Below are positions 22,302 through 26,329 of a DNA stretch of 26,329 nucleotides, piece after piece. The notes beneath the pieces were generated by a model that saw nothing but the letters and a program-made list of their open reading frames with translations, searched no databases and was not told the origin of the DNA. The translations under genes were made by a program, and so were the position numbers. Each line of letters opens with the position of its first letter. Within the stretch, counting starts at the first letter, position 1. Source of the stretch: a virus. The DNA lies in the IMG/VR virus record IMGVR_UViG_3300032081_000195, positions 1 to 26,329 of that record. One strand, written 5' to 3'.

Positions 22302-22748
22302 ATGGATTACAAACAAGATGAATTACACCAGTTTATTAAGAACTTTACAGGTGTAGATATATTTGAAGAAACTAGAAAAAGAGAGAATGTAGAGATGCGT
22401 TCATTATATAATTACATTTTACATACGGTATTAAATAAAGGGTGTTCTTACATAGCAAGAATATATAAAAGTAAGGGTAAGAATTATGACCATTCAACAG
22501 TACTGCATTCCTTAAAGATGTTTGAGATTTATAAGGCTTATAATGAAAAAATACCTTTGATTTTGTCTGAGGTCTGCAGAAGTTATATACCGGTGTCAGG
22601 TAAAATACAATTCATTGAAAGGTCCTTGAGAGATTTAAACGAAGAACAAGTAGATGAAGTTTTAGATATAATTCAAAATAAAATAAAAGAATATAGTAAT
22701 GGAGATAAAGAGATTTTCAAAGTACAAGTTGAGCCAGTTGAAGCCTAA
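22302..22748 (+). CDS. DnaA domain IV-like replication protein
   Basis: A 148-residue protein. Residues about 24-80 (RKRENVEMRSLYNYIL, then SYIARIYKSKGKNYDHSTVLHSL at 49-71) match DnaA domain IV, the helix-turn-helix that binds DnaA boxes; DHSTVLHSL corresponds to the DnaA signature. There is no AAA+ domain, so this is a stand-alone DNA-binding module. It may recruit or compete with host DnaA, or mark the phage origin. It is the first gene after the structured RNA and overlaps the ParB-like gene by 50 bases, which couples it to the modification cluster. Confidence 0.8.
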   Translation: MDYKQDELHQFIKNFTGVDIFEETRKRENVEMRSLYNYILHTVLNKGCSYIARIYKSKGKNYDHSTVLHSLKMFEIYKAYNEKIPLILSEVCRSYIPVSGKIQFIERSLRDLNEEQVDEVLDIIQNKIKEYSNGDKEIFKVQVEPVEA

Positions 22749-23313
22749 CCCTGATAACCCAAGGGTAATTAGAGATAGTAATTTTCAAAAATTAGTAAAA
22801 AGTATTAGGGATTTTCCTGAGATGTTAGAGCTGAGGGAAGTCGTAGTAGATGAGGATTATTTTATCCTGGGGGGTAACCAGCGATATTTAGCCTTAAAAG
22901 AGCTTAGAATTAAAGAGGTGCCAGTAGTTCAAATTACTGGCCTCTCATCTGAGCGTAAAAAAGAGTTTATAGTAAAAGATAATGTAAACTATGGCGTATG
23001 GGATTGGGATATCCTGGGTAATGAATATGATCCTGAGCAGTTAAAAGCATTTGGATTAAATGTATGGCAGCCACAAGAGTTCGTAGAGGATGATATGGAA
23101 TATGATTTTGAGGATGAATCTCCAAAAGTAGAAAATGATATGTCTGATATAGATGGCTCACAAAATGTAAACGACAAACCACCTGTTTATGTAGTAGAGT
23201 TTGATATAAATGACTATCCAGCTGCATTTGAATTAGCAAAAGAAGTTACTGACCTGGGTGGTTCAGTAGGAGATATTTTAGTTAAAGTTTTAAAAGATAA
23301 TTATGAAGATTAA
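22699..23313 (+). CDS. ParB/Srx-like protein, paralogue 1
   Basis: A 204-residue protein. Residues about 10-85 are ParB-N/sulfiredoxin-like: LSQLKPNPDNPRVI, SIRDFP, then VVVDEDYFILGGNQRYLALKEL (48-69) with GGNQRY in the place of the ParB nucleotide-binding motif. An acidic linker (about 125-150) precedes a small C-terminal domain (YVVEFDINDYPAAFELAKEV) that resembles the end of paralogue 2. In phages such ParB-like domains are linked to DNA modification enzymes as CTPase or nuclease-like partners, not partitioning. The start overlaps the DnaA-like gene by 50 bases; the stop overlaps paralogue 2 by 11. Confidence 0.75.
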   Translation: MEIKRFSKYKLSQLKPNPDNPRVIRDSNFQKLVKSIRDFPEMLELREVVVDEDYFILGGNQRYLALKELRIKEVPVVQITGLSSERKKEFIVKDNVNYGVWDWDILGNEYDPEQLKAFGLNVWQPQEFVEDDMEYDFEDESPKVENDMSDIDGSQNVNDKPPVYVVEFDINDYPAAFELAKEVTDLGGSVGDILVKVLKDNYED

Positions 23314-23857
23314 AGTTAGCCAATTAACCACATATGAGAGCAATCCTAGAATTATAGATACGCATAAATATGAAGCTCTTAAAAAGTCCTTGACCGATTT
23401 CCCTGATATGATGCAGGTAAGACCGATTATAATAGATGAGGATAATAGAATCCTGGCTGGTAATATGCGGTATAAAGCCTGGGTAGAGCTGGGTAATAAA
23501 GAAGTTGTGGTAAAGCAAGTAAATGATTTTACTGAAGAGCAGAAGCAAGAGTTAGTTATAAAAGATAATATTAGCTTTGGAGAATGGGATGAAGAGATTA
23601 TTCAGGATAAGTTTCCACAGTTCGATGATTGGTTTGGTAAAACTACTATGGATTATTCTATTTTAGATTATGAAGATTTAGAAGATGAGATTGATAATTA
23701 CGAATCAAACGTAAAAAAAGCAATGCACATCAAGGTAGATATGTCAAAAGATGATGCTATAAGGTATAATAAGCACTTTAGAGAGCGAAATATATATGTT
23801 GGAGGCCTACTGTTAGAAGAATTGAGAAACGTAAAGAGAGGTTATGAAAAAGGTTAA
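23303..23857 (+). CDS. ParB/Srx-like protein, paralogue 2
   Basis: A 184-residue protein that follows paralogue 1. LTTYESNPRII, LTDFPDMMQVRPIIIDEDNRILAGNMRYKAW (31-60) and the helix EEQKQELVIKDNISFGEWDEE line up with FPEM, FILGGNQRY and KKEFIVKDNVNYGVWDWD of its neighbour. The C-terminal part (MHIKVDMSKDDAIRYNKHFRERN) matches the tail of paralogue 1 in layout. So the pair arose by tandem duplication and diverged. It overlaps the dioxygenase gene by 14 bases, implying a joint function with it. Confidence 0.75.
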   Translation: MKIKVSQLTTYESNPRIIDTHKYEALKKSLTDFPDMMQVRPIIIDEDNRILAGNMRYKAWVELGNKEVVVKQVNDFTEEQKQELVIKDNISFGEWDEEIIQDKFPQFDDWFGKTTMDYSILDYEDLEDEIDNYESNVKKAMHIKVDMSKDDAIRYNKHFRERNIYVGGLLLEELRNVKRGYEKG

Positions 23858-24599
23858 TTTAAAAAAGGTTGAGCATTCAGTAAAAGTTGGAGATACTTGT
23901 AATTATATTGAGCCTAACGTTACAGAGGATTCACTTTTTTATGATAATGATGAGCTGGTCGGATTCTATATTAGAGATATAAACAAATATTCTCCTAAGC
24001 TGGGTGCATTTGTAAACCTGGCTAACGCAGAGCTATTGTCAAAAAGAGTTCCTAAAGCTACAATGAAGAGAAGCTCAGGCGTATTACAGTTTAGCACTAT
24101 CCTGGGTGCCATTGCTCCAAGACCGCATATGAGAAGACCTTATGCTACAATTAGCTCAGTACATTCAGTAACCTCAGCAAAGACCTTTGTAAAGGCTATG
24201 AGCCTGGCCGCAAGAGAGTCTGAGTTATTAATTAAAGAGATTGCACCTAACATCTACGATAATCAAAAAGAGTTATTTAAAAGCATAGATGATAAATGGA
24301 AGTTCGGAAAGTTATTTACAAGCTCGATATCTAATTATAATATAGCAGCACCTTATCATAGAGATACTGCAAACCTGGTCGGAGCAGTAAACGTTATAAT
24401 ATGTAAAAGACAAAATAGCAAAGGCGGTTGTACGACTATACCTGATTATGGAGCAACAGTTGACAGTTGTGATAATTCTATGTTAGTTTATCCAGCCTGG
24501 CGTAATGTACACGGAGTTACTCCGATAATACCTTTAGCTGATGGTGGTTATAGGAATACCCTGGTTTTTTATCCTCTAAAAGCATTTTTAAATGAATAG
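23844..24599 (+). CDS. TET/JBP-like 2-oxoglutarate/Fe(II) DNA dioxygenase
   Basis: A 251-residue protein with the double-stranded beta-helix signature of TET/JBP enzymes, which hydroxylate the methyl group of 5-methylpyrimidines in DNA. The iron ligands appear as H172-R-D174 (in APYHRDTAN) and H223 (in RNVHGVTPI), and R237 (GYRNTLVFYP) is placed to bind 2-oxoglutarate. A Gly-rich strand and VYPAWR precede the distal His as in the family. The length, about 250 residues, suits the compact phage type. Overlaps with ParB-like paralogue 2 (14 bases) and the PLP enzyme (8 bases) indicate a single operon. Substrate (thymine or 5-methylcytosine) cannot be read from sequence; no methyltransferase is in the window. 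Confidence 0.8.
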   Translation: MKKVNLKKVEHSVKVGDTCNYIEPNVTEDSLFYDNDELVGFYIRDINKYSPKLGAFVNLANAELLSKRVPKATMKRSSGVLQFSTILGAIAPRPHMRRPYATISSVHSVTSAKTFVKAMSLAARESELLIKEIAPNIYDNQKELFKSIDDKWKFGKLFTSSISNYNIAAPYHRDTANLVGAVNVIICKRQNSKGGCTTIPDYGATVDSCDNSMLVYPAWRNVHGVTPIIPLADGGYRNTLVFYPLKAFLNE

Positions 24600-25599
24600 T
24601 ATATTTCCAGTTCATAGTTTTGATAGGTCCGTAATAAGATGGTCCGATTATTTAAAAGCATTAACACCTGTTGAGGAGTACGGAGGGGTAAGATTTAAAA
24701 GAGAAGATAAATTTGCACCTATGGGATTCAACGGAGTAAACGGCTCTAAGATGAGGCAATGTCTGTGGCTGGTTGATGAATGGGTAAAGACTAAAAACAT
24801 TACTGGTATAGTTTCAGGTTCAGTAGTGGGTAGTCCGCAACACCCATTTATATCTTCAATCTGTAAGCATTATGAACTGGGGTGTTTAATAGTAACTGGA
24901 AGTAAGCATTATATGAAGCATACTAATATGATATTAGCACATCGTATGGGAGCTCAATTTAAAGTAGAGAAGATTGGTTACGCAAGAGCTTTGCAGTCTA
25001 AGGCTTTTCAAGTAGCAAAGAAACTGCCAGGGCACGAAGTATTGGAAACAAATATAACAGTTGATGAGAGGTTAAATCCACCTGAGCGTATAGAGGCTTT
25101 TCATAAGATAGGTAGTTACCAAGTAGCTAATATTCCTGATGATATTGAAACAATGATTATTCCGTGTGGCTCCTGTAATTCAGTAGTTAGCATTTTATAT
25201 GGTATAGCTCTTAATCCACCTCGTAATTTGAAAAGAATATTACTTATGGGTATCGGAAATAATGGCTCTTTCAATTTAAAATACATACCTAACAGATTAA
25301 AAATAATAAGTAAAGTTATAGGTAAAAATCTTAATTCAGCATTCAGTTATACAATGTTCAATGATAAAAATACTGGTATAAATTTAATTCATCACGATAT
25401 AAACGGCACAGGATTTTGCAGTTACGGAGATTGGATGCCATTCAATTTTGGGGGTATAGATCTTCATCCGAGGTATGAGGGCAAAGTGTGGAATTTTATG
25501 AAACAAAGTCCTGATAAATTTGACAAATATATGAACAAAAATACCCTGTTTTGGGTGGTAGGAAATGAGCCTAGGGAAGTTTTTCCAGTTGTTAACTGA
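24592..25599 (+). CDS. Fold-type II PLP enzyme in the modification cluster
   Basis: A 335-residue protein of the tryptophan synthase beta/ACC deaminase superfamily. Residues 31-57 hold GGVRFKREDKFAPMGFNGVNG-like blocks with NGSKMRQ, giving K53 as the likely Schiff-base lysine. SGSVVGSPQHPF (75-86) matches the substrate-carboxylate loop and GSCNS (about 193-197) the phosphate-binding loop. In phage DNA hypermodification clusters, PLP enzymes process the amino acid attached to the base. Here it follows the dioxygenase with an 8-base overlap. It could otherwise be a free amino acid deaminase, but the context argues for base tailoring. Confidence 0.75.
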   Translation: MNSIFPVHSFDRSVIRWSDYLKALTPVEEYGGVRFKREDKFAPMGFNGVNGSKMRQCLWLVDEWVKTKNITGIVSGSVVGSPQHPFISSICKHYELGCLIVTGSKHYMKHTNMILAHRMGAQFKVEKIGYARALQSKAFQVAKKLPGHEVLETNITVDERLNPPERIEAFHKIGSYQVANIPDDIETMIIPCGSCNSVVSILYGIALNPPRNLKRILLMGIGNNGSFNLKYIPNRLKIISKVIGKNLNSAFSYTMFNDKNTGINLIHHDINGTGFCSYGDWMPFNFGGIDLHPRYEGKVWNFMKQSPDKFDKYMNKNTLFWVVGNEPREVFPVVN

Positions 25600-25601
25600 A
25601 T

Positions 25602-25704
25602 CCACTTTTAAGGCATTTTAAGATACTTTCAGGTTTCTGTGATATAAAGCCATTGAAATTTTGAGAAGTTAGAAACGCTACATAGGCGAGTAATAAGAGA
25701 GAAT
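25602..25704 (+). promoter_or_regulatory. Intergenic block B, shared with the 10.1 kb region
   Basis: The non-coding region 25600-25723 contains CCACTTTTAAG (25602-25612), GGCATTTTAA, AAATTTT followed after seven bases by TAGAAACGCTA (25670-25680), and AGAGAG about fifteen bases on. These repeat block A at 10108-10198 in the same main order; only GGCATTTTAA has moved. No TTTG/TAnnTTTG or late promoter box is seen. It may control the genes from 25724 on. Confidence 0.45.
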
Positions 25705-25723
25705 AATTTTAAAGTTAAAAAAT

Positions 25724-25876
25724 ATGATAACAGTTATTGGATTTGGTTTTTTAGGGTTTGTAATTGGTTTAGCAGTCGGCTCAAATGACCAGGCTAAAAC
25801 GATACAAAAAGCATTTGAAAAAGAGGGGTATAGTTATACTAGATTTTATGAAGTAATTTACAGAAATGATAGGTAG
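25724..25876 (+). CDS. Small membrane-anchored protein, 50 aa
   Basis: ATG at 25724, 50 codons to TAG at 25874-25876. A Gly/Val/Leu-rich N-terminal helix (VIGFGFLGFVIGLAVG, about residues 4-19) is a single membrane span, followed by a charged soluble tail (KTIQKAFEKEGYSYTRFYEVIYRNDR). It overlaps the next gene by 11 bases. Function unknown; an inner membrane tether or regulator is possible. Confidence 0.55.
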   Translation: MITVIGFGFLGFVIGLAVGSNDQAKTIQKAFEKEGYSYTRFYEVIYRNDR

Positions 25877-26329
25877 GTATTCAGAAATAAACAATATACA
25901 AGAGCAATCAGATTTGATGCCTGGTCTTGATTTCAGGTTACCTCAATATAGGCGAGAAGTTTTTTTAAGGTTTTATGAATTTCACTTAAAATATCAGGGC
26001 CACGCAGGAGCGGTTTACTATTCATTTCCTCACATATTCAAAGAATTGAAACTAGATAAAGAGCAACAGTTATGGTTTACTTTTATCAATGGATGCTCTC
26101 AGAATGTACTCACTACATATTTAATATTTAAAGAATTTCCAAGCTTACAAGATTTAGATATTAAGGTTTTTAGTTCCTGGTTCAGGACTAATTACCTCAA
26201 GCTAGGATGGGATACAGACAGGCGATACATAAAAAACGTATTTGAAGATTGTATCATAAAGTACAAGCAAGTTTTAGCAGGTCGTACTCAAGAGCAGTTA
26301 TTCTCAGAGTTATGCAATACAGAAGATAA
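25866..26329 (+). CDS. Amino acid:DNA transferase-like (aGPT-PPlase) protein, 3' end cut off
   Basis: The frame from ATG 25866 runs 154 codons and is still open at the window end, so the gene is incomplete. Blocks FRLPQYRREVFLRFYEFHLKY (in part), GHAGAVYYSFPHIF and EQQLWFTFINGCSQNV (residues about 70-86) match my memory of the alpha-glutamyl/putrescinyl-thymidine pyrophosphorylase family. Its members transfer amino acids to activated hydroxymethyl bases in phage DNA; the PGxVYY motif is here HAGAVYY. With the dioxygenase and PLP genes upstream this completes a hypermodification set. The match is by recalled pattern, so a search is needed to confirm it. Confidence 0.65.
   Translation, partial: MIGRYSEINNIQEQSDLMPGLDFRLPQYRREVFLRFYEFHLKYQGHAGAVYYSFPHIFKELKLDKEQQLWFTFINGCSQNVLTTYLIFKEFPSLQDLDIKVFSSWFRTNYLKLGWDTDRRYIKNVFEDCIIKYKQVLAGRTQEQLFSELCNTED

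Follow-up and report, generated by a model that had tools for sequence, protein, structure and literature searches.

How could a small phage hypermodify the thymines of its DNA, when the aminoalkyl-thymine phages known so far rebuild their nucleotide pool with a hydroxymethylase? This question is raised by a cluster of genes on the + strand at the 3' end of a virus genome record of 26,329 b (IMG/VR record IMGVR_UViG_3300032081_000195, positions 1 to 26,329; the whole stretch is referred to here as the window). A preliminary description, made from the letters of the window alone, had proposed that the cluster encodes DNA base hypermodification by a TET/JBP dioxygenase, a pyridoxal phosphate (PLP)-dependent enzyme and a protein resembling amino acid:DNA transferases (ADDT). 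The present analysis makes it probable that these enzymes, together with a kinase encoded just beyond the window, constitute a four-enzyme, wholly post-replicative thymine hypermodification pathway, with predicted reactions, base and product. The TET/JBP enzyme would hydroxylate the 5-methyl group of thymine in phage DNA to 5-hydroxymethyluracil (5hmU), and the kinase would phosphorylate the hydroxymethyl group. An amino acid, most likely serine, would then be put in place of the phosphate by the ADDT and be decarboxylated by the PLP enzyme, which is of fold type II, so that the base would end up with an aminoalkyl side chain. The end product would most likely be the 5-(2-aminoethoxy)methyl-deoxyuridine (5-NeOmdU) of Salmonella phage ViI, and the modified base would shield the phage DNA from host nucleases.

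The three open reading frames (ORFs) of the preliminary description exist, all on the + strand (Table 1). Profile searches place the protein of 251 amino acids (aa) inside the 2-oxoglutarate (2OG)/Fe(II) superfamily, and by its sequence it is a TET/JBP 2OG oxygenase. It matches phrog_6059 (E 2e-50) and Pfam Tet_JBP (E 4.6e-8; 32.9 bits, slightly under the cut-off of 34.9), and the homologue from L003, 88% identical to it, lies over the cut-off (E 5.8e-9, 35.8 bits). The dioxygenase signature H172, D174, H223 and R237, that is, the iron triad and the distal arginine, is present exactly as claimed and is invariant in 24 relatives with identities down to 16-20%; these divergent sequences share only eight invariant columns, four of which are the signature residues. 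A profile of the 24 sequences matched human TET2 in the PDB (E 1.8e-9) and, more weakly, fungal CcTet and Naegleria Tet. In phrog_6059 and several RefSeq phage records the family is labelled 'queuine tRNA-ribosyltransferase', probably a misannotation; this function was rejected in view of the TET2 profile match and the Pfam Tet_JBP match.

The second ORF overlaps the TET gene by 8 b, and its product matches phrog_3650 (E 4e-77). As a single sequence the protein had no significant match in the PDB. Its AlphaFold model (predicted local distance difference test, pLDDT, 79; predicted TM-score, pTM, 0.82) was matched by Foldseek to D-cysteine desulfhydrase (4d8t, E 1.8e-10, TM ~0.57) and further to 1-aminocyclopropane-1-carboxylate (ACC) deaminase, serine racemase and O-acetylserine sulfhydrylase, and K53 of the NGSKMRQ motif is invariant. 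On the modelled structure the protein is thus of fold type II, as had been proposed. The view that such an enzyme is the least expected part of the cluster did not hold, because it belongs to the same family as orf00226 of ViI (36.9% identity over 97% to the Vi01 protein, with invariant motifs common to both). This family occurs in 346 records of the phage collection, mostly ViI-like, and the TET family in 84. No relative was found in the bacterial genomes scanned for the family. Relative to locus L015, locus L016 is missing the PLP gene and nothing else, with flanks 99% identical over 6 kb downstream and 87% identical upstream, and therefore the PLP enzyme looks, from this sequence comparison, like a separable last step.

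The third gene runs off the end of the contig. A profile search places it in the aGPT-PPlase/ADDT family, in agreement with the preliminary description: the window fragment matches Pfam ADDT (PF18724) with E 4e-8 and 33.7 bits (cut-off 26.2), the full gene of L003 matches with E 1.6e-18 and 67.7 bits, and the ADDT profile matches orf00247 of ViI (E 6.5e-49); no relative was found in the PDB. As to family, judged by these matches, the protein is an ADDT, and its predicted reaction is amino acid transfer to phosphorylated 5-hydroxymethyldeoxyuridine (5hmdU). Continuation of the cluster was found on L008, a second metagenome contig, which is 100% identical to positions 25189-26329 of the window over 1,141 b and which contains, beyond this overlap, the remaining ADDT gene and the genes for a P-loop kinase, TerS and TerL, in an order also present in the close relatives L002-L004. 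It had been stated that neither a kinase nor a C5-methyltransferase lies within the window, which is correct, and the kinase looked for beyond position 26329 lies directly downstream of the ADDT gene. A structure modelled from the L003 homologue of the kinase (pLDDT 94) matches in BFVD proteins annotated as the 5-hmdU DNA kinases of PhiW-14 (E 2.2e-5) and SP10 (E 3.3e-4), the Walker A motif is invariant, and comparison with the ViI and M6-type kinases gave hhalign probabilities of 89 and 95, respectively, in partial alignments. The description of the genes as joined by overlaps or short gaps applies to the TET and PLP genes, whereas the PLP-ADDT gap of 266 b is longer than implied.

Table 1. 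Features of the locus in the window and on the overlapping contig L008
Feature	Position	Strand	Basis
First ParB-like protein of a tandem pair; may be an accessory	22699..23313	+	Pfam ParB_N E 3.7e-5
ParB-like protein 2, overlaps TET start; possible DNA-targeting accessory	23303..23857	+	ParB_N weak, E 0.007; phrog_498/620 E 1e-25
TET/JBP-type 2OG/Fe(II) dioxygenase (251 aa); would hydroxylate the 5-methyl group of thymine in DNA (step 1)	23844..24599	+	Pfam, PHROGs, invariant residues, PDB profile match
PLP-dependent enzyme of fold type II (335 aa; catalytic lysine K53 in NGSKMRQ); would decarboxylate the DNA-linked amino acid as the last step	24592..25599	+	PHROGs, ViI homology, AlphaFold and Foldseek
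PLP-ADDT intergenic stretch, 266 b, conserved AT-rich block	25600..25865	+	
Amino acid:DNA transferase (ADDT/aGPT-PPlase), first 154 codons, 3' open at contig end	25866..26329	+	Pfam, L008 overlap, profile match to ViI orf00247
Full ADDT, 366 aa	L008:678-1778		L008 overlap with window
P-loop kinase, 156 aa, overlapping ADDT end	L008:1775-2245		L008 continuation

For ViI, Lee et al. (2018, 2022) reportedly found that the kinase phosphorylates, the ADDT loads serine and the PLP enzyme decarboxylates. By analogy, the same order of steps and the same donor would apply here, and the likeliest product would be an aminoethoxy base like that of ViI, because the PLP and ADDT families are common to ViI, whereas the transferase of Sphaerotilus phage SN1 is not matched by the ADDT profile and its PLP enzyme is only weakly alike. 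Alternatively, the pathway might act on thymine with a PLP enzyme that eliminates, deaminates or replaces, so that the product would not be 5-(2-aminoethoxy)methyl-deoxyuridine. Such reactions are frequent among fold-type II enzymes, and the nearest folds, D-cysteine desulfhydrase and ACC deaminase, are not decarboxylases. However, orf00226 is of the same family and has the same invariant motifs, and ViI DNA contains 5-NeOmdU (PMC11721090), which requires loss of the serine carboxylate. A reaction other than decarboxylation is rated unlikely, though less so than the alternatives below.

Gene content bears on whether the TET enzyme takes the place of the hydroxymethylase. Thymidylate-synthase-family proteins, which include the deoxyuridine monophosphate (dUMP) hydroxymethylases, were found in none of the 46 PLP records that have TET, the window among them, and in 4 of the 13 without TET, one of these being ViI; the Fisher p-value of 0.0016 is only a guide, because most of the records are fragments, many are related and some are near-duplicates, and the test is not fully independent. 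Such a protein is absent also from TET-positive records of 98 and 169 kb. These counts back the earlier suggestion that the dioxygenase replaces the hydroxymethyl-dUMP route. The suggestion had covered both 5hmU and 5-hydroxymethylcytosine (5hmC); thymine is most likely the modified base and cytosine is much less likely, because C5-cytosine methyltransferases (PF00145) are nearly absent (2 of 84 records). Family A DNA polymerase, the one polymerase family searched for, was found in none of 18 module-bearing records including the window. Taken together, the hydroxymethylase, C5-methyltransferase and polymerase counts therefore favour hydroxylation of thymine in finished DNA. It should be noted that the PLP records L108, L111, L113, L119, L136 and L138-L141, most of them with an ADDT, contain neither TET nor a detected hydroxymethylase, and that the TET-bearing L028 encodes a C5-cytosine methyltransferase (G019:C1:27399-27887, - strand, E 2e-42) and is possibly a 5-methylcytosine (5mC)-type TET system.

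If the TET enzyme acted on 5mC made by a C5-methyltransferase of the host or the phage, the pathway would decorate 5hmC, not 5hmU. Phage TETs with 5mC activity and partner C5-methyltransferases were reportedly described by Burke et al. (2021), L028 carries such a methyltransferase, and specificity for T or 5mC cannot be read from sequence alone. Nevertheless, this route is improbable in view of the rarity of C5-methyltransferases among the records, of the kinship of the ADDT and the PLP enzyme with those of ViI, and of the fact that characterised ADDT/kinase pathways act on 5hmdU (PMC6449724). A role of the genes in modifying tRNA or some target other than DNA, which the queuine label of phrog_6059 and several RefSeq records might suggest, is hardly credible beside the TET2 and Tet_JBP matches of the oxygenase and its neighbours, an amino acid:DNA transferase and a DNA-base-kinase-like protein.

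Besides the reported 5mC activity of phage TETs and the dependence among the records, several points weigh against the post-replicative thymine pathway. The window TET itself lies slightly below the Pfam cut-off, the choice of donor amino acid and the decarboxylation step are adopted by analogy with ViI, the kinase resembles orf00067 of ViI weakly (profile E 3.2e-5 in the Vi01 genome, hhalign probability 89) and its Foldseek matches are only moderate, and 9 of the 13 TET-negative PLP records have neither TET nor a detected hydroxymethylase.

At 60 of the 85 non-redundant PLP loci, counted from clean alignments, the genes for TET, PLP enzyme, ADDT and kinase are all found within a span of 8 kb, and six gene orders occur. 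Fusions are found of PLP with ADDT in two loci (L137, L146) and of ADDT with kinase in five (L109, L110, L114, L116, L117). Among related phages, the slot between ParB and TET, or after TET, is variable, and it may instead contain the gene of a TET-associated glycosyltransferase (Pfam TAGT) or of an FkbM-type methyltransferase, a glutamine amidotransferase gene together with that of an ADDT, a kinase gene alone, or other glycosyltransferase-like genes (judged by eye, without Pfam match). When mapped on a quick TET tree, a rough one with long branches, the PLP set must have changed about 10 times, with seven of the changes forced by supported branches, compared with a mean of 27 after shuffling; because of these changes, tailoring sets appear to have been swapped repeatedly beside TET. 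It is tempting to extend this, with somewhat less confidence than would be needed to favour it, to the view that many marine phages have an exchangeable DNA-decoration locus in which TET is the constant entry step, with alternative tailoring sets beside ParB-TET-terminase that would all act on thymine hydroxylated in place. If true, phages without nucleotide-pool machinery could make many hypermodified thymines, some of them undescribed, such as O-methylated 5hmU.

An FkbM-type methyltransferase gene lies beside TET in L022 (1740-2435) and others (cluster c21; Pfam Methyltransf_21, E 6e-10), and the enzyme could O-methylate 5hmU, a base not known to have been described. In L066-L068 (L068:2868-3641), a QueE-like gene (7-deazaguanine pathway, by eye) directly follows TET and adjoins a TET-associated glycosyltransferase or kinase gene, possibly giving two base modifications in one phage. 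A glutamine amidotransferase-like gene lies beside ADDT and TET in L037 (6338-7222) and L061 (1360-2788), where ammonia is perhaps the donor in place of an amino acid.

Upstream, a ParB-like gene adjoins TET in most TET loci, also in actinophages, and the tandem pair is kept in close relatives of the window; this conserved context makes the ParB-like proteins possible targeting factors for TET. The PLP-ADDT intergenic stretch contains, in the lineage of the window, a short unshared ORF of about 50 codons with a hydrophobic start; tested as an RNA element, the stretch gave no Rfam match and no consensus fold. Promoter and terminator counts did not exceed the levels of shuffled sequences. The portal protein is 38% identical over 98% to that of Nonlabens phage P12024S, and because of this relationship the host is likely a marine flavobacterium. 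The first gene of the window matches L003 about 4.5 kb past the kinase, and therefore about 5 kb are estimated to be absent from the record, giving a full genome of about 31 kb.

One of the closest known systems is that of the Kuttervirus ViI, which consists of the thyA-type hydroxymethylase orf00066, the kinase orf00067, the ADDT orf00247 and the PLP enzyme orf00226. Its PLP enzyme (37% identity, 97% cover) and its ADDT (matched by profile, E 6.5e-49) are homologous to those of the window, and each system has a P-loop kinase of similar type, with weak sequence similarity. ViI lacks TET and uses a hydroxymethylase of the thymidylate-synthase type, and here a TET is in its place; the ViI genes are scattered over 157 kb, and here they form one cluster in a phage of about 30 kb. 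The cassette of Pseudomonas phage M6 and Sphaerotilus phage SN1 (hydroxymethylase, aGPT-PPlase1/2, kinase, radical SAM enzyme and PLP enzyme) follows the same logic of kinase, transferase and PLP enzyme acting on 5hmdU (PMC9476957), but starts from a hydroxymethylase, not TET, and includes a radical SAM step. The SN1 PLP enzyme is weakly alike (hhalign probability 22, E 9e-4) and the transferase of this M6-like phage is unmatched by the ADDT profile at E 0.001; by analogy, the chemistry would be ViI-type rather than M6-type. A dUMP hydroxymethylase acting before replication, as described for ViI and M6, was not found here (0 of 46, including the window); the present pathway would resemble theirs in how it operates, while departing from the published form.

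In Glutamicibacter phage Montesquieu, too, a clade 2 ADDT gene adjoins a PLP gene of fold type II, which carries the annotation ACC deaminase (hhalign 99.8%, E 3e-28), but this phage differs in its annotated thymidylate synthase/pyrimidine hydroxymethylase and thymidylate kinase and is not in the tblastn list of TET-bearing phages. The phage TET systems of Burke et al. (2021) are said to start from 5mC, with C5-methyltransferases. Rhodococcus phage Tonitrus has a predicted five-gene thymine hypermodification system (PMC11955845); in this phage, and in mycobacteriophages such as Bane2, ParB-like, TET and ADDT genes occur together, in Tonitrus with a kinase too, but no PLP enzyme is among the neighbouring genes listed, and the Tonitrus ADDT is too distant for the present ADDT profile. 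Kinetoplastid JBP1/2, the thymine hydroxylases of base J, are likewise TET/JBP oxygenases that modify a pyrimidine methyl group in DNA before decoration, which in base J is glucosylation (PMC6449724). The locus raises the question of whether a phage TET hydroxylates T, as JBP does, rather than 5mC.

No description of the full set of TET, kinase, ADDT and PLP enzyme was found in the literature searched, which did not cover key papers of the field, and among the matches listed (six PLP organism names left out) the named TET-bearing genera are absent from the named PLP-bearing ones. With a TET-first route, if true, about four genes would be enough for a small phage to hypermodify its finished DNA; such a route would explain the spread of the trait between phages and would offer a compact enzyme set to write amine handles onto ordinary thymine in DNA. 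The functions of the components, the pairing of TET with ADDT (and kinase) in actinophages and the fold-type II PLP enzyme of ViI relatives and Montesquieu were already known or predicted; what is new in comparison is that a complete set of the ViI type has TET as its entry enzyme and is exchanged in a tailoring slot beside TET.

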